In this document: one piece after another, positions 858-22,689 of the stretch
Numbering within the stretch: the first letter of the stretch is position 1
Layout: every line of letters starts with the position of its first letter
Source: Rubrivivax sp.
Lineage (GTDB): Bacteria > Pseudomonadota > Gammaproteobacteria > Burkholderiales > Burkholderiaceae_C
Length of the DNA stretch: 55,960 nucleotides
Direction of reading: 5' to 3'
Assembly (NCBI GenBank): GCA_022842305.1
Contig: JALHPY010000008.1
Span: 1 to 55,960 of the forward strand
Notes under the pieces: model-generated
Seen by the model: the letters and a program-made list of their open reading frames with translations, nothing else
Told to the model about the DNA's origin: nothing
Database searches by the model: none
Translations under genes and position numbers: made by a program

Positions 858-882
858 CGCCGACGACGATCAGACGTCGGCG
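858..882. terminator. Hairpin between converging genes
   Basis: Perfect 8-bp inverted repeat CGCCGACG / CGTCGGCG with a 9-nt loop. The stop codon of the leftward TIR gene (870-872) lies in the loop. There is no T-run, so it is a weak candidate for a shared terminator of the converging permease and TIR genes. Confidence 0.4.
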
Positions 883-2474
883 ACGAAGCACGACGCCGCG
901 AAGCGCTCCCGCAGAATCGCCGACAGCTCGTCCACCGCCACGACGCTGCGGCGTACTTCTTTGCTGTCTTCACGGGCGCGCAGCAGGGGCGTGTCATCCA
1001 AAGCCAGGAAGCGCCGGTCGCCGCTGGGGATCGAAGGGCCAGCAAAGTAGAGCAGGCAAAAGCTGTTGGGTGGCGGCGGCTTGGGCGCTTCGGGGTCGCT
1101 GTCGCTCCTGCCACCGAGCCCGGAGGCCGCGGCAGCAGCGCCAACGCGCTTGAACATCGCGGGCGGGATCGCAGCCGACGACACCTGCATGCTGAGCAGC
1201 GCGAGCATCACGTCCTCGCGCTTGGGGTTGCGCAGCCATTGCAGTTCGAACCCGGCGGCGCCGAGGAAGTCGCTCCAGGCCTGCCCGTCCAGGCGCACAC
1301 CCGGTAGCTGCGTCGAATGGTCGATGTGGTCGACCGTGATCACCAGGGCGCGGCGACGGCGGCTCGGGGGTGCCAGCCGCAGGTACACATCGCCGTTCAT
1401 GTCGGTGGCAATGAACGGTCGCTGGCGCCCATTGGTCTGCGCGAGCACCTTGTGGACCGTGCGCGCCAGCGCCAGGCTCAGCGACACCTGATCCGACGCC
1501 ATCTCCGCCAGCAGGTTCTTCGTGAAGCCCGCGCCTTCATAACCCACCTGGCTGGACGACGTCGCTGACACGAAAACCTGGCCTTCCAGGTCGGTGCGCA
1601 TCGCCTCGCGCTGGACGGCTTCCTTCAGCGCCAGCGCGGCGGCTTCGTCGGCCCGACTTCGCATGCGCTCCAGCTCCCGCGCCTCGCGCACGAACATGTA
1701 GCCCAAGGTACCCATGCCGGCGCTCAGCACCGCGCCCGCCACACCGCCGGCCACGGTGCGGCGGCGCAACTGCCGGGTTGCGGCTTCGCGCAGGGTCAGC
1801 GCCTGGGCCTGCTCGGCCACCGCGTGGGCCAGTTCGTCCAGGCGTTGCCGCTCCAGGTTCTCGCGCTGCGCCGACGCTTCGGTGCTGTGGGTGATGTAGC
1901 GGCGTTGGTCGTCGGTGATCTCGGGCGCGCCGGCATGCCAGCACGTGGCCCAGGCCTGACTGCCGGCCAGCTCGGCACCGCGCAGCAGCAGGGCATCGTC
2001 TTGACCGCGGGCCAGCCAGCGCCCGGCCAGTTCGGCGAGGCGGGTGTGCTCGCGGATCCAGTCCAGATCGACGCGCAAGGCGTCGGCCAGACGGCCCAGT
2101 GCGCGCGCGAAGGACTGGCCCGGCCCGAAATCGATGAAGTTGAGCTTGCGCAGCAGCGGCGGAACGTCGTTTTCCGACACCGGCGCTGCCACCACCGGAA
2201 CGATGCGCTTGGACAGCGCGCTGGCCTTGTCCACCTCCCAGGCACAGCGCCGCGACCCGACCGAGCGCGGCGACAGCAGGAACACCACCGTATCGGCTTG
2301 CCGCAGCAGGCTTTCCAGGCGCTGCTCCCAGTCTTCTGCGGCAGCGATGTCGTGCTTGTCGAGGATGGGGTCGAAGCCGAGCAGCTCGAGGCCGATCATC
2401 AGCTCCTCGGCCAGCGCGGCAGCATCCCCTCGGGCGTAGGAGATGAAGATGCGGAGTCGGGTGCTGGCGTCCAT
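870..2474 (-). CDS. TIR domain - membrane segment - reversed-order caspase-like protein
   Basis: 534 aa. Residues 7-100 are a TIR domain: start RIFISYARGD, then SPRSVGSRRCAWE with Glu80 at the place of the NADase catalytic glutamate. Residues 130-235 are the charged helical linker (WIREHTRLAELAGRWL..., LLLRGAEL) usual after bacterial TIR domains in TIR-WD40 proteins. One membrane helix lies at about 241-262. After it comes a caspase fold in two pieces in swapped order: 298-367 matches the C-terminal (p10-like) half (GQVFVSAT, GFTKNLLAEM, QRPF..GDVYL), and 374-534 matches the N-terminal (p20-like) half (RRALVITVD, PGVRLDGQAWSDFL, LLYFAGPS). The catalytic His position reads Pro480 instead of the His of YYAGHG, and the protein stops one codon before the catalytic Cys would stand. 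A signalling, conflict or scaffold role is inferred; the exact function is unknown. The start is 13 nt after a GGGGAG, a rather long spacing. Confidence 0.8.
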   Translation of the reverse strand: MDASTRLRIFISYARGDAAALAEELMIGLELLGFDPILDKHDIAAAEDWEQRLESLLRQADTVVFLLSPRSVGSRRCAWEVDKASALSKRIVPVVAAPVSENDVPPLLRKLNFIDFGPGQSFARALGRLADALRVDLDWIREHTRLAELAGRWLARGQDDALLLRGAELAGSQAWATCWHAGAPEITDDQRRYITHSTEASAQRENLERQRLDELAHAVAEQAQALTLREAATRQLRRRTVAGGVAGAVLSAGMGTLGYMFVREARELERMRSRADEAAALALKEAVQREAMRTDLEGQVFVSATSSSQVGYEGAGFTKNLLAEMASDQVSLSLALARTVHKVLAQTNGRQRPFIATDMNGDVYLRLAPPSRRRRALVITVDHIDHSTQLPGVRLDGQAWSDFLGAAGFELQWLRNPKREDVMLALLSMQVSSAAIPPAMFKRVGAAAAASGLGGRSDSDPEAPKPPPPNSFCLLYFAGPSIPSGDRRFLALDDTPLLRAREDSKEVRRSVVAVDELSAILRERFAASCFVADV

Positions 2475-7399: not shown

Positions 7400-8044
7400 T
7401 CAGCCCTTGGCGCCGCGCGGGCGCCGGGCCGGGCGGGTGGGCCGCGCCGGGCGCCGCACCGGAGCGCGCGGCCGGGTGACGTCGGCGATGAGCATGAGCG
7501 CGCGCACGATGTCCTGCACCGCCTCGGCCAGGTCGGCCGGCGGCTCGAGAGTGTCGATGACCGCGATCAGCGCGTCGGCGTCTTCCAGGTCGTCGGGGTC
7601 GAAGTGCATGAACAGCAGGGCCAGCGGCTCCACCAGTTCCGGGTCGTCCACGGCCATCAGTTCGGGAAAGTGCTCCATCGCCGCTGCAAAGCCGGCGGTC
7701 CAGGGCAGCACGCAGTCGGCCGGCGTGGCTTCACCTTCCAGCGGAAAGATCCAGGGGTCGAACCACTGGCGCTGGCCGATGGCCTGGTCGAGCTCGTCGT
7801 GGCGGCGCAGCACCAGGGCCTGCAGTTCGTCCAGCACCGGGCCGGCCGGCGCGGCGCGGCCGTCGACATCGCAGACGTGTGCCAGCCAGCGCGCGGGCGG
7901 CGGGCGGCGCGGCTGCAGCAGCACGCCGCACAGGTAGCCGTCCAGCGCCGACACGTCCAGCGGCTGCAGCGGCGGCGGCAGGCTGTCCAGCAGGAACTGC
8001 AGGCGTTCGATGTCGGAATCGGCAAGAAGCTGGGTGTTCGGCAT
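7400..8044 (-). CDS. YecA/YgfB family (UPF0149) protein
   Basis: 214 aa. The family pattern is clear: an N-terminal helix, LDVSALDGYLCGVLLQP around residue 30, WFDPWIFPLEGEATPADCVLPWTAGFAAAME in the middle, and acidic helices. YecA proteins end in a zinc-binding SEC-C motif; here it is absent and replaced by a basic Arg/Pro-rich tail (RAPVRRPARPTRPARRPRGAKG) that could touch RNA or DNA. ATG at 8044 follows GGGGAG. That Shine-Dalgarno can be masked by a CCCC-TGTCGT-GGGG hairpin (8050-8063), hinting at translational control. Confidence 0.82.
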   Translation of the reverse strand: MPNTQLLADSDIERLQFLLDSLPPPLQPLDVSALDGYLCGVLLQPRRPPPARWLAHVCDVDGRAAPAGPVLDELQALVLRRHDELDQAIGQRQWFDPWIFPLEGEATPADCVLPWTAGFAAAMEHFPELMAVDDPELVEPLALLFMHFDPDDLEDADALIAVIDTLEPPADLAEAVQDIVRALMLIADVTRPRAPVRRPARPTRPARRPRGAKG

Positions 8045-8049
8045 GGTCT

Positions 8050-8238
8050 CCCCACGACAGGGGATTTGCACCCTGCAAGCCCGCGGCTAGATTGGCCCCA
8101 CTCGGCGCCGCGGCGGGCGGATTGTCCCGCAAGCGCGGCCCGGGCCTGCAACGGCCAGGCGATTTCGTACGGTCCCAACGACGTCCTTCTCGGAGGACTT
8201 GCACGAGCCCGCTGCGCAAGCAGCGGGCTCCTTTTTTT
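8050..8238 (+). ncRNA. Candidate small RNA ending at a strong terminator
   Basis: The plus-strand terminator at 8205-8238 has no plus-strand gene in front of it: the nearest upstream gene on that strand ends at 6871 and the adjacent gene is on the minus strand. A transcript ending there must begin in or near this region and would be at most about 190 nt, with several small stem-loops. No promoter was identified, and the start given is only the left limit of the folded region. It could also be an antisense RNA extending into the YecA-type gene. Confidence 0.35.
8205..8238 (+). terminator. Rho-independent terminator (strong)
   Basis: Perfect 11-bp stem GAGCCCGCTGC / GCAGCGGGCTC with a GCAA tetraloop, one C, then seven Ts (8232-8238). 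It is followed at once by a second perfect hairpin, GTGCGCCCG-GCA-CGGGCGCAC (8239-8259), and a third, CTTGCGG/CCGCAAG (8261-8286). Confidence 0.85.
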
Positions 8239-8369
8239 GTGCGCCCGGCACGGGCGCACTCTTGCGGGTGCAGGTCCCGCCGCAAGCTGACCACAGCGAA
8301 CGAAGCGAAGCGCAACTGCATGAGGGTGACCAAGTGGGGGGAGGAATCGTGGAGTGAAGCTGCGGGCAG

Positions 8370-8465
8370 ATGAATAAGAACCGGATAGAAGGCGCCGCCG
8401 AGCAGGGCGAGCGGGCCATGAACCGCGAAGCTCTCGCTATCAAGGCGAGGTGGCGTAGATCCGGC
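8370..8465 (+). pseudogene. Possible csbD-family gene remnant
   Basis: The frame opens with MNKNRIEGAAEQ, which resembles the N-terminus of CsbD-like stress proteins (pattern MNKDRIEGAAKQ...GKVKEA). After about 18 residues the CsbD pattern (repeated GK, AEGK segments) is lost and the frame runs on into unrelated residues. It would then be a 5' fragment cut by insertion or deletion. The match is short, so this is a suggestion only. Confidence 0.35.
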
Positions 8466-8630
8466 GGATATGCAACGAAGGAGTGTGTTCTTACCGGGGG
8501 AGATCTCGCCTTGTGGGTGCTCTGCGAAGCAGCGGCGAAGACAAAGGGCGACGGCTGCTGCAAGACGGGTGGTGTGGCAGGGGCGCCTCCTGTCATGGAA
8601 GCCCCCTATCCCGATGTCGCGCGGCGCGAC

Positions 8631-9428
8631 TCAGCGCAGCGCCGGCAGCGCCGGGTGGCGCAGGTGCTGCAGCGTGATGGCCTCGGCGCGCCCGTCCTGG
8701 CCGCTGCGCCGGCACAGGTCGGCCAGCAATTGCCAGTGGCCGCGATTGGCGGGTTCGGTGCGGGTCGCGCGTTCGGCCATCGCCAGGGCTTCGCGCAGAT
8801 CCTGGGCCGAGGCCTGAGATCCCGACTTCAGGCGTGCCAGTGCGGTCAGCGCTGGCGCGAAGTCGGGCCACGACTTCAGCGTCGCGCGAAACGCCGACAC
8901 GGCCTCCGCCTTGCGGCCGCGCGCGTGCCAGGCTTCGCCCTCGAAATACTGACCCAAGGGGTCGTCGCCGCGCGCCTGCAGCACCGGGCGCCAGCTGGCC
9001 TGCGCCTTCTCGGCCTGCTTGTCGTGCAACTGCAGCGCACCCTGCGCCAGCAGGCCGAAGTACGGCGGCTGCTCGACTTCACGCAGCCGGGCGATCGCGG
9101 ATGCGGCCGCGCCGCGGTCGCCGTTGACCGCGGCACAGAGGGCGAACACGCCCAGGGCGGCTACATCTGGAACCTGCCGCGCCAGCACCGTCGTGGCGAT
9201 GTCGCACGCCCGCGCCCAGCGTCCACGGCTGAGCGATTCCAGCGCATCGCTGCCCGTGGCTGCTGTCGACCTGTCCTCGAGCGCGCCGAGGGGGCCCGCC
9301 AGCGCCGGCGCGGGCGAGCCCGGTGGCGGGGCCCCGCTGGTCGGCATCTCTGTCGGCGCCGCCCGGCAGGGCGCGCTCAGGCAGGAGACCGCCAGGATGG
9401 CGGCGAGCAGCGGGTGCATTGCGGTCAT
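8631..9428 (-). CDS. Exported TPR-like protein
   Basis: 265 aa from the ATG at 9428, with AAGG ten bases upstream; an alternative ATG lies at 9419. A signal peptide is visible (HPLLAAILAVSCLSAPCRA). The mature protein has a low-complexity Pro/Ala stretch, then helical repeats with TPR spacing (YFGLLAQGALQLHDKQAEKAQASW, DPLGQYFEGEAWHARGRKAEAVSAFRATLKSWPDFAPALTALARL). It lies 36 bp downstream of, and on the same strand as, the PEP-CTERM gene, so the two are probably cotranscribed and may act together at the cell surface. TPR proteins are frequent companions of PEP-CTERM/exosortase loci; the specific role is not known. Confidence 0.78.
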   Translation of the reverse strand: MTAMHPLLAAILAVSCLSAPCRAAPTEMPTSGAPPPGSPAPALAGPLGALEDRSTAATGSDALESLSRGRWARACDIATTVLARQVPDVAALGVFALCAAVNGDRGAAASAIARLREVEQPPYFGLLAQGALQLHDKQAEKAQASWRPVLQARGDDPLGQYFEGEAWHARGRKAEAVSAFRATLKSWPDFAPALTALARLKSGSQASAQDLREALAMAERATRTEPANRGHWQLLADLCRRSGQDGRAEAITLQHLRHPALPALR

Positions 9429-12901: not shown

Positions 12902-15900
12902 TCAGGGCGTGGCGGTGTCCAGTTCGCGCCGCTCGAACACGTAGTCGGTATCGCCCTGGTGGCCGGCGGCGCGCGAGGCGCCGTACTGCGGCGTCTGCGG
13001 GAAGTCTTTCACCACGCCGGCGCGCACGCGCTCGAACAGGTTGCTGCCGGGCTGCCACTGGTCCAGGCCTTCCAGCGCGCGCATCAGGTGCCAGGCAAAG
13101 ACCGAGTGGCCTTCGCGGCCCTCGTCGGCCACCGGTTCGTTGCCGCCCGAGGACATCACCACCACGGCGCGGCGGTCCAGCAGCCGCCCGGCGTCGCCGC
13201 CCTGCACCACCTGCACACGCTCGTTGCCGGCCAGCGTGCCCGAGTAGCAGCTGTCGGACACCAGCATCAGCTGGCGCGAACCGATGGCCGCGACCATGCG
13301 CGCGATGTCGGCGTTGGCCAGCCAGCTGCGCGGCTCGCCCGCGTCCACGTCGGACGGCAGCCAGAAACCCGTGTCCACGCCGTTGATCGGCACCACCACG
13401 CCGTGGCCGGCGTAGTAGACGATGACCGAGTCGTCGGCGTCGGCTTCGAGTGCCAGCTTGTTGAAGGCGCGCACGATGGACTCGCGGCTGGCGTCTTCCA
13501 GCACCTGCGTCTCGTAGCCCAGGCGGGTTTCCAGCAGTGCACGCACGGCGCGCACGTCGGGCACCGCGCCTTCGAGCTGCGGCACGGCCTTGTCGGCGTA
13601 GCGGTTCACGCCGATCAGCAACGCCAGCTTGCGCTCGATGCGCGGCAGCACCGCCTGCTTGACCTTGCGCTGCCCCGGCTTGCGCGCCTTGGCCAGCGGC
13701 TTGGCCGTGGTCCCGGCGCGTGCCGCTGCCGCGCGCGCGGCGATGACCTCGATCTCCTGCTTGAGCTGCTCGGTGATGATGCAGTTGCCGCTGCTCAACT
13801 CGGCCTCGCTGCGGCAGGCGCGCACGTCGGCCAGCGCCGGGTCCTGCTCCAGCTTGTACAGGCCGCCGGCCAGCACCTTCTTCTTGTAGCCGTCGCGCGC
13901 CGCCAGCAGGCTTTGCACGTCGGCGCGCGGCAGTTGCGACAGGTTGATCGAGCCGAACACCGGCGCGCCGCCACCCGAATCGCCCGCGGGCGCAAAGGCC
14001 GGTGTGGCGTCGAGCACGCGGCCGGCCACCGGGGTGGACATGGCCAGCGGGATCTGCACCGACAGCAGCGCGTTGTTGAAGCCGACCAGCGTGGCAGCGG
14101 TGGCGAGGTCGGCCACCACGGCGGACAAGGCGGTCCCTTGCAACGTCAGCGCCGTGGCATTGCCCGCGGCCTGGATGAAGACGTAATTGGTCGCGGCCAG
14201 ACCCCCGCCCAGGATGGCGTAGCTGCCGGCCGGGCTGGCGTTGCTGGCCGGGGTGGTCCAGGCCAGGGTGCCGGTGGTGGCGCCGACCAGGGTCTCGCCG
14301 GCCACGAACCCGACCACGCTGCCGCCCAGCCCCGGCACGGGCTGGCCCGCCGCTGCAGTGACCGGGGCTGCGGTGTAGGTCAAGGTGGCCGGCGTGATGC
14401 TGGCGTTGACCCCCACCGGCAGCGCCAGCGTGTAGTTGGCCGCGTCGGCACCGATCAGCGTCAGGCCGGACAGCCCCACCAGCTTGCCCACGCCGACGTT
14501 GGCGTCGCCGAAGCTGGCGCTGGCCGCGCCGCCCACGCTCACCACGTCGGCGCCCAGCGGCGTGACGCTGCCCAGGCTGCTGAAGCTGGCCACCGTGCCG
14601 CCGTCGTAGACCTTGTCGGCCACCGCCGCGCCGGCCACCGCCGCGCCGGCCAGGCTCAGCGCCAGCGGCGTGATGCTGCCCACCGCGCCGCTGGCCGTGC
14701 CGCTGAACTGGTAGCCGAACACCGGGATGCCGGTGCCGGTGTCGGTTGCCGTGGCGGTGACGCCGGGCACCGTCACCGTCTTGCCGCTGCCCACGTCCTT
14801 GGGCGCGTTGCCGGTGCCGGCGCTGGTGTAGCTGCCGGCGCCGGGGTTGTTGAGTACCACGCTGTCGATGGCCAGCGCGCCGCCCACCGCGTAGTTGGCG
14901 GGCAGCAACGTGGCCGCGACGCTGTTGTCGTAGACCTTGCTCACCGTGCCTTGCAGGCCGGCAGTGAGAACGGGCGCCAGGCTGTACAGCAGCCCGTTGC
15001 CGGCCGCGGCCGGGGTGCTGACGCCGAAGGTCGCGTTGTACTGGCGGAAGGCGCCGGCCAGGCCGCCAACGGTGTCGGCCAGCGGGTCGGCCGACCAGAC
15101 CAGCCAGCGCGCCGCGCCGGTCACGTTCAGCACGCCGGCACCGGCGTTGTTGACGAAGGGGCCGCTGCCGGCGTTGATGACGATGGCGTCGCCCACGCCC
15201 ACCGTCGCCAGCAGCGCCGCGCCGGGGGCGAACTGCACGCCGTTGGCGCCGCTCAGCTGCAGGCTGCGGCCGTCGACCGGGCCCTCCAGCGCCAGCGTGC
15301 CCGCGCTCAGTTGCATGTCGCCGATCGACGTGAGCGAGCCGCCGGGCGCGACCTGCAGGGCGCCGGCGGCGCTGGCGTTGAGTGTGCTGCTGCTGTCGAT
15401 GCCGTCGTCGATGCGCAGCGTGGCGCCGGGGTCGAGCGCGCTCAGCGTCACCGTGCCGGCGATCAGCGAACCCGGCGCCAGATCGCCCGTGGTCTGCGTC
15501 AGGCTGATGCTGCTGAAGTTGGGGTCCACTTGCGCCAGCACGCTGCGCGTGAAGCTGCTGGTCACCGTCAGGCTGCCGCTGCCGCCCAGCGTGCCGCCGC
15601 TCAGGTTGGCACTGGCCAGCGTCGACGCGCCGTTGAGCAGCAGCGTGCCGGCCTGCACTGCAACGCTGCCGGCGCCGGTGACGCCGCCGGCCAGCGTGGC
15701 TGCGCCAGCGCCCGACACGGTGAACGAGCCGTCCAGCGCGGTGTTGCCCAGCACGGTGAGCGAGCCGCCCGAGACGTTCAGCGCATTGGCGCTGCTCACG
15801 GTGAGGTCGGCCACGGTGTCGATGCCACTGCCGTGCTGCACGGCAAAGCCGGCGCTGATGAGCGCCGAATCGGCGGCGCCGGGCAGTGAGCCGCCCCAGT

Positions 15901-18900
15901 TGGCCGGCGTGCCCCAGTCCAGGTTGCCGGCGGCGTTGCTGAACACCCGGGTCGCGGGGCCGGCGGCAAAGATCAGCCGCGCCGCCTCTCCCGCGGCCAG
16001 GTTGTAGCCGGGGCTGAAGCCGGCCGGCAGCGTCAGCGCGGCAAAGGTGCCGCTGGCCGTGCCGGTGGCGGTGACGATGGGCATGAAGTCGGCGTTGGCC
16101 GGCACGTAGGTGCCCGCCAGCGTGGCGGTCAGCGCGCCGCCCAGGGTGGCATTGCCGGTCACCGCCAGCTGGTCGAAGGAGCCGGGCGCGGTACCGCCCA
16201 GTTCGACCTGCAGCGTGCCCGCGCCCAGCGCCAGGTTGCCACCCACGTTGAGCGTGCCCACGCCGCCGGGGGCGCCGGGGCTCAGCGTGCCCTGGTTGCT
16301 GAGCGTGCCGCTGCCGCCGGCCAGCACGACGCTGCCGCTGCCGCTGATCGTGCCGTTGTTGACCAGGTTGCCGGCCAGGTCCAGCGTGCTGCCGGCGGCC
16401 ACGTCGATCAGGCCGCCCTGGGTGACGTTGGCATTGAGCCCCAGCGTACCCGCCAGCACCAGCACCGTGCCGCTGTTGTCGAAGTTGGTCACCGCCACGG
16501 CGTGCGCACCCGCCAGACCCTGGAGCAGCGTGCCGGCGTTGTTGACGCTGGTCGTGCCGGCACCGCTGCCCAGCGGCGTGGCGTCGCTGCTGGCCAGGAT
16601 CAGCGTGCCGCCGGCCAGGTTGGTCAGGCTGCTGATGCCGGCCACGGGCAAACCCAGCACGATGCGGTCGTCGTCGCCGATGCTCAAGTTGCCGCTGTTG
16701 AGCCACGGCTTGTTCACGCCCAGCACGCCGCCGACGGTGCTCATGGCGACGGTGCTGCTGCCCAGGGTGTTGAAGCTGCCGCTGCCCACCAGGTTGGCCG
16801 GGCCGCCGATGGCCAGGAAGGCGCCGGTGACGGCGACGTCGCCCGTGCCGGCGAATTCGCCACCGTTGAGGATCAGGCTGCTCAGCGTGTTGGTGCTGTC
16901 CACCGTCAGCGAGCCGGCATCGACCGTGGTGGTGCCGATCTGGGCCAGCGTGCCGGTGACGGTGAAGGTGCCCGTGCCCGCCTTCACCAGGCTGCCGCTG
17001 CCAACGACGTTGCCGGCGAAGCTGCTGCTGGCGCCCGACACACCGGTGCTCAGCGTGCCCGTGCCCAGGTTGACCGTGCCGGCGCCGGCCAGCGAGCCGA
17101 AGGACTCGTTGCCGCCCAGCGCCAACGTGCTGCCGGCAGCCAGCGTGACGTCGGGCGCGGCGATCAGGCGGTTGGCCGAGGCCAGCGTGAGCGTGCCGCT
17201 GCTGACCGTCAGGCCGCCGGCCGAGGTGCCGGCCAGCAGGCTGTTGCCGCTGGAGTTGATCGGCCCCAGGTTGACGTTGGCACCGACCGTGCCGCCGTTC
17301 AACGCCACCGCCGAGATCGCCGTCAACGTGCCCGTGCCGGCCAGCGTGCCGGCCACCGCCAGGCTGGCCAAGGTGTCGCTGCCGCCGATTTGCAGCGTCG
17401 CGCCGCTGGCCACGCTGACGACGCTGGTGTCGGGCAACAGGTTGGCGGCTGCGGTCGCCAAGGTGCCTGCGTTGATCGTCGTCGCACCGGTGTAGGTGGG
17501 GGCGCCGGCCAGGGTGAGCGTGCCGGCGCCGGCCTTGGTCAGACCGAAGGTGCCACCGACGACGCCGCCCAGCGCCAGCGTACCGCCGCCGCCGATCGTG
17601 CTGTCCGCCGTGAGCGTGACTGCCCCGCCGGCGCTGGGCGTGCCGGTGGCCACCAGCGCGCCGACGCCGCCGACGCCAGCGCCGGCCAGGCTCAGCGCCT
17701 CGGTGCCGATGTTGACGCTGTTGAGTTCGAGCGTCGCGCCGCTGGCCACCGTGGTGCCGGCGGCGACGGTGCCCAGCGCGGTGGCGCTGCCGGCCACCAG
17801 CGTGCCGGCGTTGACGACGGTAGCGCCGGGGTAGGTGTTGGCGCCGCTCAGGATCAGCGTGCCGGTGCCGCTCTTGGTCAGGCCGAAGCCGCCGCCGACG
17901 GCGGTGGCGAGGGTGCCGCTCAGGGTCAGCGTGCCGGTGCCGCCGATGCTGGTGCCGCCGCCCAGCGTCACCGCGCCCCCGGCGCTGGCCGTGCCCGTAC
18001 CCACCAGGGCGCCGACGCCGCCGGCCCCCGTGCCGGTCAGGCTGAGCGCCTCGCCACCGATGTTGACGTTGTTGATCTCCAGCGTCGCGCCGCTGGCCAC
18101 CGTGGTGGCGCCGGCGACGCTGCCCAGCGCGGAGCCGCTGGCGGCCACCAGCGTGCCGGCGGTGACGCTGGTCAGGTCGAAGTAGGTGTTGGCGCCGGCC
18201 AGCGTGAAGGTGCCGGTGCCGGCCTTGACCAGGCTGGCGCCGGTGCCGGGGCCGGAGATCACGCCGTCGAAGCTGGTGCTGGTGTTGTTGCCGCCGGTGG
18301 TCAGCGTGTTGGCGCCCAGCGCAACGCTGGTGCCGGCCACCCCGGCCAGCGCGCCGATGGTTTCGCTGGCCTGCAACGCCAAGCTTGCGCCGCCGGCCAG
18401 CGTGACGACCGAGCCATCGGGGATCGCGGCGCCGCCCTGCAGTTGCAGCGTGCCGGCGTTGGCATCGGTCGCGCCGGTGTAGGTGTTGCTGCCGGACAGC
18501 GTGACACTGCCCGCGCCGATCTTGGTCAGGCTGCCGGTGCCGCCGACCACCCCGCTCACGCTCAAGCCGCCACCGTTGCTGGCGACGCTGGTGTTGCCGG
18601 TGATCGCAACGGTGCCGGTCAGCGTGCCGGTGCCGACGCTGTTGCCCAGCGTACCGGCGCTGACCGCGACTGCATTGCCGAGGTTGGCGCCGTTGTCGAC
18701 GTTGAACTGCGCGCCCGCGCTAACGCTGACGATGCCGCTGCCCATGAAGGCGTTGACGCCACTCACGCTGAGCGTGCCCGCCGTCACCGTGGTGCCGCCG
18801 GTGTAGACGTTGGAGCCCGCCAGCGTGACGTTGCCGCCGATGGCGCTGAGGTCGAAGGCGCCGCTGATCTGGCCGTTCACTGTGAGGCCGGTGCCGACGC

Positions 18901-20995
18901 TGATGAGGGCCGAGCCGGGCGCCGTGAGCGTGACGCTGCCCGCCAGCGTGCCACTGCCCTGGGCGTTGCCGATGGTGCCGCCGGCCAGCAGGATGCTGTT
19001 GCCCACCGTGGCGCCGTTGTCGATGTCCAGGCCGTTGGCGCCGACGCTGATGGTGCCGATGCCGGCCGTGGCGTCGACGCCCGAGACGCTGAGCGTGCCG
19101 CCGGCCACGGTGGTGCCGCCGTGCGTGTTGGCACCCGTCAGTCGCAGCGTGCCGGCGCCCGCCTTGGTCAGCGGCGAGGTGCCGAAGATGATGCCGTCGA
19201 CGACCGAGGTGCCGGTGCTCAGCGTCCAGGTGCTGCCCACGCTCAACTGCACGTCACCGGTGATCGACAGCGTCCCGGCCGTCAGGTTGGCCTGCACCAG
19301 GTTCGCCACGCTGCTGCCGTTGCTGTTGATCGTGAGCGTGCCGGTGCCGGCATTCAGCGGCGCACCGATCAGCACCGAGCCCGTGCCGGTGGCCGAGCCA
19401 CCAGGGTCATTGGCCGACAGCACGATGCCGCCGCCGGCGTTGATGGCGCTGAACAGGTCGATGTTGCCGCCCGCCTGCAGCGTCAGGCTGCCGGCGCCGG
19501 TGATCGGCGTGACGCCCGCGCTGAAGGTGATGTCGGAGCCGGCCTGCAGCAGCACGTTGCCGCCGGCCAGTAGCAGGCTCACCGCGTCCGAGGTGATGAC
19601 GCTGGTGCTGGTCAGGAAGTCGGCGAACAGCAGCGTGGGCGTGTTCAGGTCCACGCCCGGCGTGTTGCCGCTGAGGTTGGGCTCGGCCTGCTGGATGACG
19701 ATGAAGGCCGGGTCCAGCAGCAGGCTGCCGTACTGGCCTGCGGGGGCGGACAGATCGGCCGTGCCGGCGTAGTCCAGCACCTGCTTGCCCGAGACCTCGG
19801 CAAAGCCGCCGTCACCGCCCGCAGCGCCGCCGCGCGCGCTGATGTGGCCCTGGAAGCGCGTGCCACCGTCGGCCCAGACGATGACCTGGCCGCCATCGCC
19901 GCTGCCCTGCGCGTCGGCGCGCAACTGCGCCCCGGCGGCGATGCCCACGCGCTGGGCGTTGGGCAGACTGGCGTCCTGGCCCTGCAGGCCACCGCCCACG
20001 CGGATGCGACCACCGCCCGTGGCACCCGAGGCATCGACCTCGGCGCCGCCCAGCAGGCCCACCTGGCGCCCCAGCAGCGTGATGTCGCCGCCCTTGCCGG
20101 CCGCGCCCAGCGCGCTGGTGCGGCTGGCTGCGCCCAGCAGCAGGGTGTCGGTGGCCTGCAGCCGGATGCGGCCCTGGGCGTCGACCTGCAGCGCATCCAC
20201 CTGCACCAGGCCCTGCTGGTTGACGATGCCGCCGTAGATGTCGACCACGCCGCCGGCCGCGGCCAGGCGGCCCAGGTTGAGCACCTCACCGGCCGGCACG
20301 TCCACGCGCACCGCCAGATTGGGCAGGCCGGTGTCGACCAGCTCGACGCTGCGCGCAGCGGCCAGCGTGGCCTGGCCGCCGGGGGTCTGGATGTCGCCGC
20401 TGTTGTCCACGCGGCTGCCCAGCAGCACGACCTGCCCGCCGAAGCTGGTGTGCAGCGCGCCCTGGTTGTGCACGCCGGCGCTGTCGCCGGCCGATGCGTT
20501 GAAGCGGTGGCGGCCAGCCAGGAAATCGTTGTCGCCCAGGCGCAGCGTGCTGGCCACCAGGCCGGCCACGTCGACGCGCGCGTTGGCGCCGAAGAGCACG
20601 CCGTTGGGGTTGAGCAGCCAGACCTGGCCGTTGCTGCCCAGGCGGCCCAGGATGTGGCTGGGATCCTGCCCGGTGACGCGATTGAGCACCTTGCTCGCCG
20701 CCGAGGCCTGGTCGAAGTAGACGCTGTTGCCGCTGCCGATGGAAAAGCTCTGCCAGTTGAGGATGGCGCCGGCGCTGTTGCGCACGGTCATGGCCGAGCC
20801 CTGCGTGGCCACCTGGGCCTGGCCGTGCACCACCTGCAGCCCACCGGGCAACGCCCCGGTCTGGGCCTGCAGCGCCAGCGGGCCGGCCAGCAGCCAGGCG
20901 CCGGCCAGGGCGTGGGCCAGCGGCCGCAGGCGGGTGTTCAGGCCCGGACGGACAGGGCGTGGGGCAGTGCGGACGTGGGGGGCCGGGACGCGCAT
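12902..20995 (-). CDS. TpsA exoprotein: haemagglutinin secretion domain, repeats, C-terminal caspase
   Basis: 2697 aa. ATG 20995 follows GGAG. Long N-terminal signal (LRPLAHALAGAWLLAGPLALQAQ), then the TPS/haemagglutination domain (LPGGLQVVHGQA..., VWLLNPNGVLFGANARVDVAGLVAST) that directs export by TpsB. The middle is a beta-helix of autotransporter-type PATR repeats (GTGTLILSGANTYPGATVV type, about seven clear copies) and Gly/Thr/Ser-rich segments, then YDG/MBG modules (VSKVYDNS, ADKVYDGG). The last 250 residues are a caspase fold: LALLIGVNRYAD, VIVYYAGHG with His2531, LVSDSCYSG with Cys2583, then VVVMSSGG and HSVFAWHLMRAL. Both catalytic residues are present, so a secreted or surface-displayed cysteine protease is plausible. 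The gene follows tpsB on the same strand. Confidence 0.9.
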   Translation of the reverse strand: MRVPAPHVRTAPRPVRPGLNTRLRPLAHALAGAWLLAGPLALQAQTGALPGGLQVVHGQAQVATQGSAMTVRNSAGAILNWQSFSIGSGNSVYFDQASAASKVLNRVTGQDPSHILGRLGSNGQVWLLNPNGVLFGANARVDVAGLVASTLRLGDNDFLAGRHRFNASAGDSAGVHNQGALHTSFGGQVVLLGSRVDNSGDIQTPGGQATLAAARSVELVDTGLPNLAVRVDVPAGEVLNLGRLAAAGGVVDIYGGIVNQQGLVQVDALQVDAQGRIRLQATDTLLLGAASRTSALGAAGKGGDITLLGRQVGLLGGAEVDASGATGGGRIRVGGGLQGQDASLPNAQRVGIAAGAQLRADAQGSGDGGQVIVWADGGTRFQGHISARGGAAGGDGGFAEVSGKQVLDYAGTADLSAPAGQYGSLLLDPAFIVIQQAEPNLSGNTPGVDLNTPTLLFADFLTSTSVITSDAVSLLLAGGNVLLQAGSDITFSAGVTPITGAGSLTLQAGGNIDLFSAINAGGGIVLSANDPGGSATGTGSVLIGAPLNAGTGTLTINSNGSSVANLVQANLTAGTLSITGDVQLSVGSTWTLSTGTSVVDGIIFGTSPLTKAGAGTLRLTGANTHGGTTVAGGTLSVSGVDATAGIGTISVGANGLDIDNGATVGNSILLAGGTIGNAQGSGTLAGSVTLTAPGSALISVGTGLTVNGQISGAFDLSAIGGNVTLAGSNVYTGGTTVTAGTLSVSGVNAFMGSGIVSVSAGAQFNVDNGANLGNAVAVSAGTLGNSVGTGTLTGTVAITGNTSVASNGGGLSVSGVVGGTGSLTKIGAGSVTLSGSNTYTGATDANAGTLQLQGGAAIPDGSVVTLAGGASLALQASETIGALAGVAGTSVALGANTLTTGGNNTSTSFDGVISGPGTGASLVKAGTGTFTLAGANTYFDLTSVTAGTLVAASGSALGSVAGATTVASGATLEINNVNIGGEALSLTGTGAGGVGALVGTGTASAGGAVTLGGGTSIGGTGTLTLSGTLATAVGGGFGLTKSGTGTLILSGANTYPGATVVNAGTLVAGSATALGTVAAGTTVASGATLELNSVNIGTEALSLAGAGVGGVGALVATGTPSAGGAVTLTADSTIGGGGTLALGGVVGGTFGLTKAGAGTLTLAGAPTYTGATTINAGTLATAAANLLPDTSVVSVASGATLQIGGSDTLASLAVAGTLAGTGTLTAISAVALNGGTVGANVNLGPINSSGNSLLAGTSAGGLTVSSGTLTLASANRLIAAPDVTLAAGSTLALGGNESFGSLAGAGTVNLGTGTLSTGVSGASSSFAGNVVGSGSLVKAGTGTFTVTGTLAQIGTTTVDAGSLTVDSTNTLSSLILNGGEFAGTGDVAVTGAFLAIGGPANLVGSGSFNTLGSSTVAMSTVGGVLGVNKPWLNSGNLSIGDDDRIVLGLPVAGISSLTNLAGGTLILASSDATPLGSGAGTTSVNNAGTLLQGLAGAHAVAVTNFDNSGTVLVLAGTLGLNANVTQGGLIDVAAGSTLDLAGNLVNNGTISGSGSVVLAGGSGTLSNQGTLSPGAPGGVGTLNVGGNLALGAGTLQVELGGTAPGSFDQLAVTGNATLGGALTATLAGTYVPANADFMPIVTATGTASGTFAALTLPAGFSPGYNLAAGEAARLIFAAGPATRVFSNAAGNLDWGTPANWGGSLPGAADSALISAGFAVQHGSGIDTVADLTVSSANALNVSGGSLTVLGNTALDGSFTVSGAGAATLAGGVTGAGSVAVQAGTLLLNGASTLASANLSGGTLGGSGSLTVTSSFTRSVLAQVDPNFSSISLTQTTGDLAPGSLIAGTVTLSALDPGATLRIDDGIDSSSTLNASAAGALQVAPGGSLTSIGDMQLSAGTLALEGPVDGRSLQLSGANGVQFAPGAALLATVGVGDAIVINAGSGPFVNNAGAGVLNVTGAARWLVWSADPLADTVGGLAGAFRQYNATFGVSTPAAAGNGLLYSLAPVLTAGLQGTVSKVYDNSVAATLLPANYAVGGALAIDSVVLNNPGAGSYTSAGTGNAPKDVGSGKTVTVPGVTATATDTGTGIPVFGYQFSGTASGAVGSITPLALSLAGAAVAGAAVADKVYDGGTVASFSSLGSVTPLGADVVSVGGAASASFGDANVGVGKLVGLSGLTLIGADAANYTLALPVGVNASITPATLTYTAAPVTAAAGQPVPGLGGSVVGFVAGETLVGATTGTLAWTTPASNASPAGSYAILGGGLAATNYVFIQAAGNATALTLQGTALSAVVADLATAATLVGFNNALLSVQIPLAMSTPVAGRVLDATPAFAPAGDSGGGAPVFGSINLSQLPRADVQSLLAARDGYKKKVLAGGLYKLEQDPALADVRACRSEAELSSGNCIITEQLKQEIEVIAARAAAARAGTTAKPLAKARKPGQRKVKQAVLPRIERKLALLIGVNRYADKAVPQLEGAVPDVRAVRALLETRLGYETQVLEDASRESIVRAFNKLALEADADDSVIVYYAGHGVVVPINGVDTGFWLPSDVDAGEPRSWLANADIARMVAAIGSRQLMLVSDSCYSGTLAGNERVQVVQGGDAGRLLDRRAVVVMSSGGNEPVADEGREGHSVFAWHLMRALEGLDQWQPGSNLFERVRAGVVKDFPQTPQYGASRAAGHQGDTDYVFERRELDTATP
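17512..18213 (-). repeat. Tandem 351-bp (117-aa) duplication inside tpsA
   Basis: Two adjacent copies, about 351 bp apart, encode the module ASGATLE(I/L)N.VNIG.EALSL.G.G.GGVGALV.TGT.SAGGAVTL followed by a PATR motif. The shift was measured between equivalent GCGCTGG positions at 17631 and 17982. The borders given are approximate. Smaller, more diverged repeats continue on both sides (about 16900-19200). Confidence 0.7.
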
Positions 20996-21054
20996 CGGAA
21001 TTCTCCTGCCGGGGGCCGGCGCGGCGCGCGTGGCGCGGCGCCGCGCCCAGGCCA

Positions 21055-22689
21055 TCAATGGTTGTAGATCAGGCCCAGGTGCAGGCGGCCGGCGCCCTTG
21101 CGCGTGCTGACGCCTTCGTTCAGGGCCATGGCCAGGTCGGCGCGCAGCTGCAGTTGCGGCCAGCCCAGGCGCAGGCCCAGGCCCAGCGCACCCAGGCGGC
21201 ATTCGCTGCTGCCGGCGCGGCAGGCGTCGTCCTGGCGGTTGCCCACCCAGCCGGCATCGGCAAAGGCCAGCGCGCGAAGTTCACCGCCGCGCAGCCAGGC
21301 CGCGCCTTCGCCCAGGCGCAGGCTTTGCGCCTCGAGCGTGAGCTGCAGGCCGGAATCGCCGGCAAATTCGCGCTCTTCGAAGCCGCGCACCGACCAGGCG
21401 CCGCCGATGCCGAACATCTCGCCCGGCACCAGCGCGCGCGCCGCGTACTGGCCGTTGGCGCGCAGACTGATCGAGCCCCAGTCCTCGACCGGCAAGCCCA
21501 CTTGCGCGCTGGCGCGCAGGGCGGTGTAGTAGCGCCGGCTGCCCGGGCGCACGGCGTCGAAGTCGGCCTGGGCCGCATGCTGGCCGCCCAGCGCCAGGTT
21601 GCCGTGCAGGCCGATGCTGAAGCCCAGCCGGGTTTCGGCCACGGTCTGCGCGCTGTAGGTCAGGCTGGCCGGCTGCAGCGCCACGCTGGCGCCGGCCGCG
21701 CCGCAGGCGCCCTGCGGCAGGCCGGCGATGGAGCAGCTGTTGCGGTACTCGCGCCATTCGACGCCGACCAGCAGGCGCTGGTCGAGGTTGTCGATGCGCG
21801 GCAGGTAGACGTTGGCGCGCAGCCCGGCCACCGTGCCCTGGCCCGAGAACGCCAGCTCGCCGGCCTGCGTGGCCACCTTGCCGGCGTCGACGTCGGACCA
21901 GGCGCCATAGGCGTCCAGCGCCAGCGCGCGGCCGTAGAAGGGCACGCGCCAGTTGGCGCTGATCACGTTCACCGAGGCCGGATCTTCGGGCGCGGTCTGC
22001 CATTCGGCGGCCAGCACCTGGTCGGTGCCGAAGAGATCGGCGTGCTGCCAGCCGAAGGCGGCACGCCAGCGGCCGTTCTCGCGCCCGCCGGTGTTGTCCA
22101 GGCGCGCGCTCAGGCGCTGCACCGGCTGTTCGACCACCGCCACCTTGGCCGCGACGCTGCCCGGCTCGGTGCCCGGCTGCAGCAGCACCTGCAGTGTCTT
22201 GGCCGGGTTCTCGTTGGCCATCTGGATCTGCGCGTCGATGATGCGCACGTTGGGCGTGCGCCCGGTGGTCAGCGCCGGCACGCTGGCCAGCAGGTTGTCA
22301 CGCTTGAAGTGCGCGCCTTCCTCGACGTCGATGCGCGTGAGCCGGCCCTCGACCACGCGGATGCGCAGCACGCCGTCCTTGGGCTCTTGCTCGGGCAGGA
22401 AGGCCACCACGCCACCGTAGCCGGCGCGGCGGTACAGGTCCTGCACCACAGCGGCGGCCTCTTTGAGCCGCGGCAAGGCCAGCGCGCCCTTGTAGGGCTG
22501 CAGGCGCTCATCGATCAAGGCCGGTGGCAGCAGGCTGTTGCCCAGCACCTCCCAGGCACGCACTTCCACGGTGGCAGCAGGTGACGCGGGCGCTGGGGTC
22601 TGGGCCCGCAGCGCGGCAGACGCCAACAGCAACGCGGCTGCCAGCGCCCAGGCGGCCGGGGCAGCCCCGGATCTGAAGTATCTGTACAA
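21055..22689 (-). CDS. TpsB outer-membrane transporter (ShlB/FhaC/HecB family)
   Basis: 544 aa. Start is TTG at 22689 with GGGAG seven bases upstream. Signal peptide (ALAAALLLASAALRAQ), then POTRA-type periplasmic domains (residues about 40-190: VEVRAWEVLGNSLLPP, LYRRAGYGGVVAFLPEQ, VVEGRLTRIDVEEG) and a 16-strand barrel. The conserved loop-6 motif is present as SVRGFEER, and the C-terminus ends in an aromatic outer-membrane signature (LHLGLIYNH). It recognises the TPS domain of the exoprotein encoded immediately downstream (59 bp after its stop) and threads it through the outer membrane: type Vb secretion. Confidence 0.94.
   Translation of the reverse strand: MYRYFRSGAAPAAWALAAALLLASAALRAQTPAPASPAATVEVRAWEVLGNSLLPPALIDERLQPYKGALALPRLKEAAAVVQDLYRRAGYGGVVAFLPEQEPKDGVLRIRVVEGRLTRIDVEEGAHFKRDNLLASVPALTTGRTPNVRIIDAQIQMANENPAKTLQVLLQPGTEPGSVAAKVAVVEQPVQRLSARLDNTGGRENGRWRAAFGWQHADLFGTDQVLAAEWQTAPEDPASVNVISANWRVPFYGRALALDAYGAWSDVDAGKVATQAGELAFSGQGTVAGLRANVYLPRIDNLDQRLLVGVEWREYRNSCSIAGLPQGACGAAGASVALQPASLTYSAQTVAETRLGFSIGLHGNLALGGQHAAQADFDAVRPGSRRYYTALRASAQVGLPVEDWGSISLRANGQYAARALVPGEMFGIGGAWSVRGFEEREFAGDSGLQLTLEAQSLRLGEGAAWLRGGELRALAFADAGWVGNRQDDACRAGSSECRLGALGLGLRLGWPQLQLRADLAMALNEGVSTRKGAGRLHLGLIYNH

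Follow-up and report, generated by a model that had tools for sequence, protein, structure and literature searches.

Profile searches, homologue alignments and a predicted structure show that a gene near the start of a Rubrivivax sp. contig (JALHPY010000008.1, assembly GCA_022842305.1; the 55,960 nucleotides analysed are called the window here) encodes an N-terminal TIR domain with its glutamate, a hydrophobic helix and a predicted circularly permuted caspase fold, in which the p10-like (C-terminal) half comes first and is followed, after a few residues, by the p20-like (N-terminal) half. A first-pass annotation of the DNA letters had proposed this chain of domains, and Pfam, homologues and structure model bear it out; the borders it gave for the two halves, residues 298-367 and 374-534, lie within about 6 residues of those found here, and to its gene call we add the minus strand. 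Judged from the sequences compared, the architecture is real and conserved in its family.

Results

Reversed order of the caspase halves

The start of the Pfam Peptidase_C14 model sits near the end of the window protein, residues 373-428 matching model positions 1-57 of 233 (6.3e-5; 23.2 bits against a cut-off of 21.4). The p10 half of this protein alone gave no Pfam match, and its assignment therefore rests on homologues and the structure model. A protein search gave 597 homologues, the best 120 of which are listed. Peptidase_C14 was matched in 56 of 57 family members (E 0.01; best 7.1e-20). For all nine unaltered homologues scanned singly (P0091 and eight others) the best stretch was the end of the model (143-161 to 227-233), beginning at residues 244-292, ahead of the p20 part. 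Searching the halves separately, as the first-pass annotation had advised, placed the p10 half of homologue P0025 on model 162-233 (3.5e-6) and its p20 half on model 2-63 (1.5e-8). Re-ordering to p20 plus p10 changed the scores from 55.6 to 61.0 bits in P0025 and from 48.4 to 53.1 in P0091; in the window protein the best stretch was still model 1-57, at 25.2 rather than 23.2 bits. Because these gains are small, the re-ordering test alone adds little.

Three profiles, one for the TIR/linker part and one for each caspase half, were made from 75 family members and used to take a census of order in 123 proteins: the window protein, 121 proteins from homologue searches and TpsA, a long protein encoded elsewhere in the window. 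All three profiles scored in 105 of these (30 not used in profile building), and p10 came first in 105/105; in four (P0013, P0045, P0076 and P0122) the first profile matched only at its linker end. The 190-residue fragment P0123 also has p10 then p20, and the remaining 17 proteins, including TpsA, lack p10 or p20 and were left out of the count. Among 1308 locus reading frames 61 scored for both halves. The 56 without a TIR domain, which contain repeats, all had p20 first (11 further rows with p20 alone were left uncounted); the five with a TIR domain (L001 and L015, both the window gene, with L045, L046 and L076) all had p10 first. Homologues collected by domain order thus agree with the first-pass reading. 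A TIR domain with a normal-order caspase, the possible precursor, was found neither among 122 proteins (best 120 of 597 homologues) nor among the 61 two-half rows, and such a precursor may exist. A tree was built from 26 selected permuted and 52 distinct normal domains, and a 100/100 branch sets all the permuted ones apart on one side; because the tree is unrooted, this is consistent with a single origin rather than proof of one.

It is scarcely credible that parts of two caspases were brought together by a local rearrangement, a frameshift or a misassembly. The gene does lie within 900 bases of the contig end, and a relative in Thauera is decayed; against this stand 104 other proteins with the same order, one of them 69% identical over its full length, and two intact copies in other genomes (L045 and L046). 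A frameshift behind the early stop was considered and rejected because the closest homologue among the matches listed (P0003) and fragment P0123 also finish '...DV'; by eye, no p10 was seen downstream of the stop in three frames of the minus strand. In the decayed copy (L047, Thauera sp. 28, about 7700-8600) the beginning of the TIR and the remnants of p10 and p20 no longer share one reading frame.

The AlphaFold2 (AF2) model of the C-terminal region has a caspase-like fold, and the non-caspase fold that the first-pass annotation said would overturn its reading was not obtained. The p10 half contains elements E28-33, H47-54, H62-76 and E84-87, and the p20 half E103-110 to E257-263. The best structural match among PDB chains is engineered cpCasp2 (8vp4, 9c2y), itself permuted. 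The normal-order TpsA caspase gave a poor model (4 alignment rows; predicted local distance difference test score 53.4) and is a weak control only: every one of its 18 PDB matches at E <= 0.001 has the natural order, and the best 50 of its 1203 PDB matches do not include cpCasp2. A sequence-only PDB search with family alignment A3 returned caspases at best E 0.0081, too weak by itself.

In VIA-align the chain of the window protein stops just before the catalytic Cys position. V534 pairs with caspase-1 284, caspase-4 257, caspase-11 253 and Yca1 275 (one before the Cys, in PDB entry-title numbers) and also with caspase-2 319, caspase-3 162 and MALT1 463, which precede the catalytic Cys as well. 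In the first-pass alignment of TpsA with the window protein, the pairing of LVSDSC with CFVADV is one residue off, since V534 pairs with the residue before Cys.

Loss of the catalytic residues

Residues were counted over 93 homologues, window protein included, which align over TIR, p10 and p20 and were picked by coverage from an alignment of 105. The Cys position holds Asn (36), Ala (23), His (9), Gln (8), Gly (5) or others (10), with the chain ended in 2, and Cys in 0/93. His occupies the catalytic-His position in 5/93; the window protein has Pro480, which corresponds to the His of YYAGHG in TpsA and is flanked by Gly479 (92/93) and Gly481 (78/93). The entropy of this column, 3.79 bits, is the second highest among well-filled columns of residues 290-534. 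The His-Cys dyad of active caspases and orthocaspases is absent and the C-terminal domain, on this residue evidence, is a pseudo-protease (pseudocaspase). The p10 half begins with new invariant residues, Arg293, Asp295 and Gly298 (each 93/93), and this RxDxxG motif may occupy the old active site or hold it shut. Its three codons lie at 1596-1598, 1590-1592 and 1581-1583 on the minus strand.

An active protease, constitutively folded in the manner of the engineered reverse caspases, is a very improbable reading of the domain. Order and fold are shared with cpCasp2, which carries its small subunit ahead of the large and is constitutively active (PMC7760212); however, Cys is missing in 93/93 and His in 88/93, the window protein ends before the Cys position, and a Cys-His mechanism is excluded by the sequences examined. 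The engineered cpCasp2 is man-made and has neither TIR domain nor membrane helix.

The TIR domain scores 75.9 bits with TIR_2 (PF13676; cut-off 28), and TIR_2 was matched in 57/57 family members (E 0.01). It is the best conserved part, with a mean column entropy of 1.21 against 1.70-2.36 in the caspase parts, and its Glu80 is presumably the NADase glutamate of TIR domains. TIR domains can act as scaffolds, and the protein could be a structural signalling platform in which the TIR domain serves plain assembly without NAD chemistry; the retention of Glu80 in 93/93 and the conservation of the TIR part make this decidedly unlikely.

Membrane segment and topology

The hydrophobic stretch around residues 244-262 has a Kyte-Doolittle value of 1.44 in the window protein (median 1.59 over the 93) and reaches 1.2 or more in 90/93; the gene product is probably membrane-anchored. 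Of the two flanks of the helix, the N-terminal one carries the higher net charge in 81/93, an equal one in 11 and the lower in 1, and Arg238 and Arg239 are both invariant in 57/57 homologues. By the positive-inside rule, this bias would place the TIR domain inside and the pseudocaspase outside. The first-pass annotation missed both this charge bias, which would place the domain across the membrane from the TIR, and the pseudo-protease state (Cys 0/93). In 3/10 scanned relatives (P0108, P0118 and P0121) the same TIR-linker half is fused to Peptidase_M15_3 instead of the pseudocaspase; the C-terminal module therefore looks exchangeable, and a Peptidase_M15_3 domain in this place fits an outside C-terminus. 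Cysteine content was tried as a compartment marker and proved uninformative (0.45 per 100 residues in permuted domains, 0.53 in normal ones, 0.09 in normal ones minus one Cys each).

A search for shorter, TIR-less permuted proteins with alignment A3 gave three matches, P0013, P0122 and P0123; P0013 comes from a 1341-base contig, and in both P0013 and P0122 the similarity to the TIR/linker profile is confined to the linker. Residues 285-536 of P0025 as query found only the query and two TIR-bearing proteins, an insensitive search, as more than 100 relatives exist; a free-standing form may exist.

Distribution and neighbourhood

The window genome aside, the permuted model matched at E <= 1e-15 in 18/398 phylum, 1/399 order and 3/299 family genomes, all in normal order except one from the family sample (G1278), which may coincide with one of the species found by the pattern scan below. 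The class sample (n=274, E <= 0.001) held 21 other genomes with partial matches, only partly resolved for order, and a continuous match in the window genome only; three same-genus genomes gave none at 1e-15. Since the samples overlap and many genomes were scored on 6 to 9 first-look candidates only, the rarity is a lower bound. A short-pattern scan of genome contigs found six loci: two intact permuted copies, in Cognatazoarcus halotolerans (L045) and Piscinibacter defluvii (L046, the same protein as P0012, 545/546 identical), one decayed copy and three normal-order caspases. Plasmids gave no match to P0012 at 1e-20, and viral contigs gave one locus (L075), in normal order. Source names among the homologues listed include Piscinibacter, Hyphomonadaceae, Devosia, Rhizobiales and Vicinamibacterales, and the permuted TIR-pseudocaspase family looks wide but patchy.

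Ten neighbouring open reading frames (ORFs) at three loci were scanned with Pfam; three had matches and seven none, and some may not be genes. The Cognatazoarcus copy is immediately preceded by an ADP-ribosylglycohydrolase gene (L045, 5843-7018), which might work together with TIR chemistry. The Piscinibacter copy has a CHAT-TPR (caspase-like) ORF upstream (L046, 2845-5613) and a rhomboid ORF downstream (8811-9410). Read from translations, the window gene is preceded, on its own strand, by a gene for an ABC transporter substrate-binding protein; on its other side an ABC permease in convergent orientation runs off the contig start. No Thoeris-type effector was recognised in these translations; the neighbours were not searched, and the contig end is 870 bases away. 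There are no tRNAs in the window. The minus-strand TpsA gene at 12902-21202 encodes a secreted-type protein of great length, read as TpsA/filamentous haemagglutinin-like, which ends in a normal-order caspase (12977-13633) with the YYAGHG and DSC motifs kept. The 5.2 Mb genome (G000) has 11 other Peptidase_C14 matches over the cut-off.

Table 1. Features of the gene, in window coordinates
Feature	Residues	Position	Strand	Basis
Whole gene, intact ORF, ATG start, stop at 870-872	534 in all	870..2474	minus	69% identical full-length homologue P0003
TIR domain	9-129	2088..2450	minus	Pfam TIR_2 4.9e-21; PDB match to SARM1 TIR at 2.6e-4
Position of TIR catalytic glutamate	Glu80	2235..2237	minus	E in 93/93 aligned homologues
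Linker and charged helix	135-235	1770..2072	minus	Homologue alignments
Hydrophobic (predicted transmembrane) segment, Arg238-Arg239 ahead	244-262	1689..1745	minus	Kyte-Doolittle and charge counts
p10-like caspase C-terminal half, first in order	292-367	1374..1601	minus	Family-built profile, 92 bits; Peptidase_C14 end in homologues; AF2
p20-like caspase N-terminal half, last in order	370-534	873..1367	minus	Pfam Peptidase_C14; AF2; VIA-align
Position of caspase catalytic His	Pro480	1035..1037	minus	His in 5/93
Final residue, pairs with residue preceding caspase catalytic Cys	Val534	873..875	minus	VIA-align chain ranges

Discussion

Our data lead us to lean towards a single-pass membrane receptor in which the pseudocaspase senses and the TIR domain gives the output. 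The TIR domain would lie in the cytoplasm and the pseudocaspase in the periplasm, where, without cutting, it would bind a peptide, a protein or a partner copy through its old substrate groove or its dimer face. The permutation would put the chain ends in the activation-loop region beside the old active site and, because they moved there, binding at that site could pull on the membrane helix. Helix movement would bring TIR domains together for NAD+ cleavage or an ADP-ribose signal, and this output would serve defence or cell suicide. We favour this flow of signal, from pseudocaspase to TIR, opposite to the first-pass suggestion that TIR NAD cleavage feeds a scaffold. More tentatively, the family might form a bacterial class of Toll-like receptor, with a cytoplasmic TIR NADase, one helix and a periplasmic permuted pseudocaspase whose dead groove, when occupied, moves the helix and so activates the TIR domain. 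Like animal Toll-like receptors and SARM1, it would be a receptor with a TIR part, on a topology predicted here, and the TIR of SARM1 is a PDB match; unlike them, it starts with the TIR domain and has a permuted pseudocaspase as its presumed outer domain.

Several observations weigh against a receptor. Foldseek superposes the model loosely on the permuted caspase (TM 0.51-0.54; root-mean-square deviation 6.8-7.6). Hydropathy reaches 1.6 in just 46/93 homologues and is 1.44 in the window protein, so the helix may fail to span a membrane, and cysteine content cannot separate inside from outside. No neighbour gene is common to the three loci (10 ORFs scanned, 7 without a Pfam match), and the similarity to named defence proteins in PADLOC and NCBIfam is weak and lies mainly in the TIR part. 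The best NCBIfam match, the Thoeris family ThcB4, scores 55.0 bits against 220 and covers residues 8-94 only. Homologues P0020 and P0091 also match caspase_w_EACC1 (25 bits against 140), and P0091 matches a PADLOC caspase at 8.7e-4.

Caspase folds often dimerise, and cFLIP pairs with caspase-8. By analogy, the pseudocaspase could be a cytoplasmic docking module that pairs with a true caspase of the cell and brings it to the TIR domain or membrane, the output being proteolysis by the partner. The 11 other Peptidase_C14 matches in the genome would suit such pairing, as would type IV Thoeris, where a caspase-like protease is linked to a TIR signal (PMC12847820); however, the nearest caspase match on the contig, at 12977, does not adjoin the gene and the charge bias predicts the domain outside, and we regard docking as unlikely. 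Type IV Thoeris itself also has TIR and caspase fold in one pathway, but as separate genes in an operon, with an active protease switched on by N7-cADPR (PMC12847820).

The first-pass annotation held the architecture to be new or little described in bacteria, and we found no report of a bacterial permuted caspase in the literature searched, which leaves out most subscription papers. Excerpts of PMC6426788 define type III metacaspases, known from algae, by p10 before p20, and that 2019 survey detected none in prokaryotes among 11,208 p20 sequences; its p10 profile was that of metacaspases and may be blind to the p10 described here. The window protein has this order rather than the normal p20 before p10 and lacks the catalytic dyad; type III metacaspases are eukaryotic, calcium-dependent according to a title in the reference list of PMC6426788, and no TIR is named for them in its excerpts. 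The bacterial pseudo-orthocaspases of the same survey also lack the His-Cys dyad, but most commonly have Tyr-Ser there and carry C-terminal partner domains, and permutation is unmentioned in those passages. PMC3501461 lists TIR as one of the domains associated with prokaryotic metacaspases, and 'circular', 'permut' and 'reversed' are absent from the part available; 'circularly permuted' in PMC8195603 refers to a different peptidase, and the sole 'caspase' in the available text of PMC13232231 is a reference on TIR-caspase immune signalling.

Caspases of swapped order have been engineered in the laboratory so as to force activity, and some algae have them naturally. More than 100 bacterial proteins of the same order suggest that bacteria arrived at this permutation too, perhaps a single time, and later abandoned catalysis. 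If the receptor reading is true, a natural permuted caspase would here be described in bacteria for the first time, as far as we have found, and a dead protease would have been turned into the ectodomain of a receptor. One chain unites two hallmark immune folds, TIR and caspase; it offers a natural system for asking why a circular permutation is kept, and the hypothesis of a bacterial receptor is directly testable.
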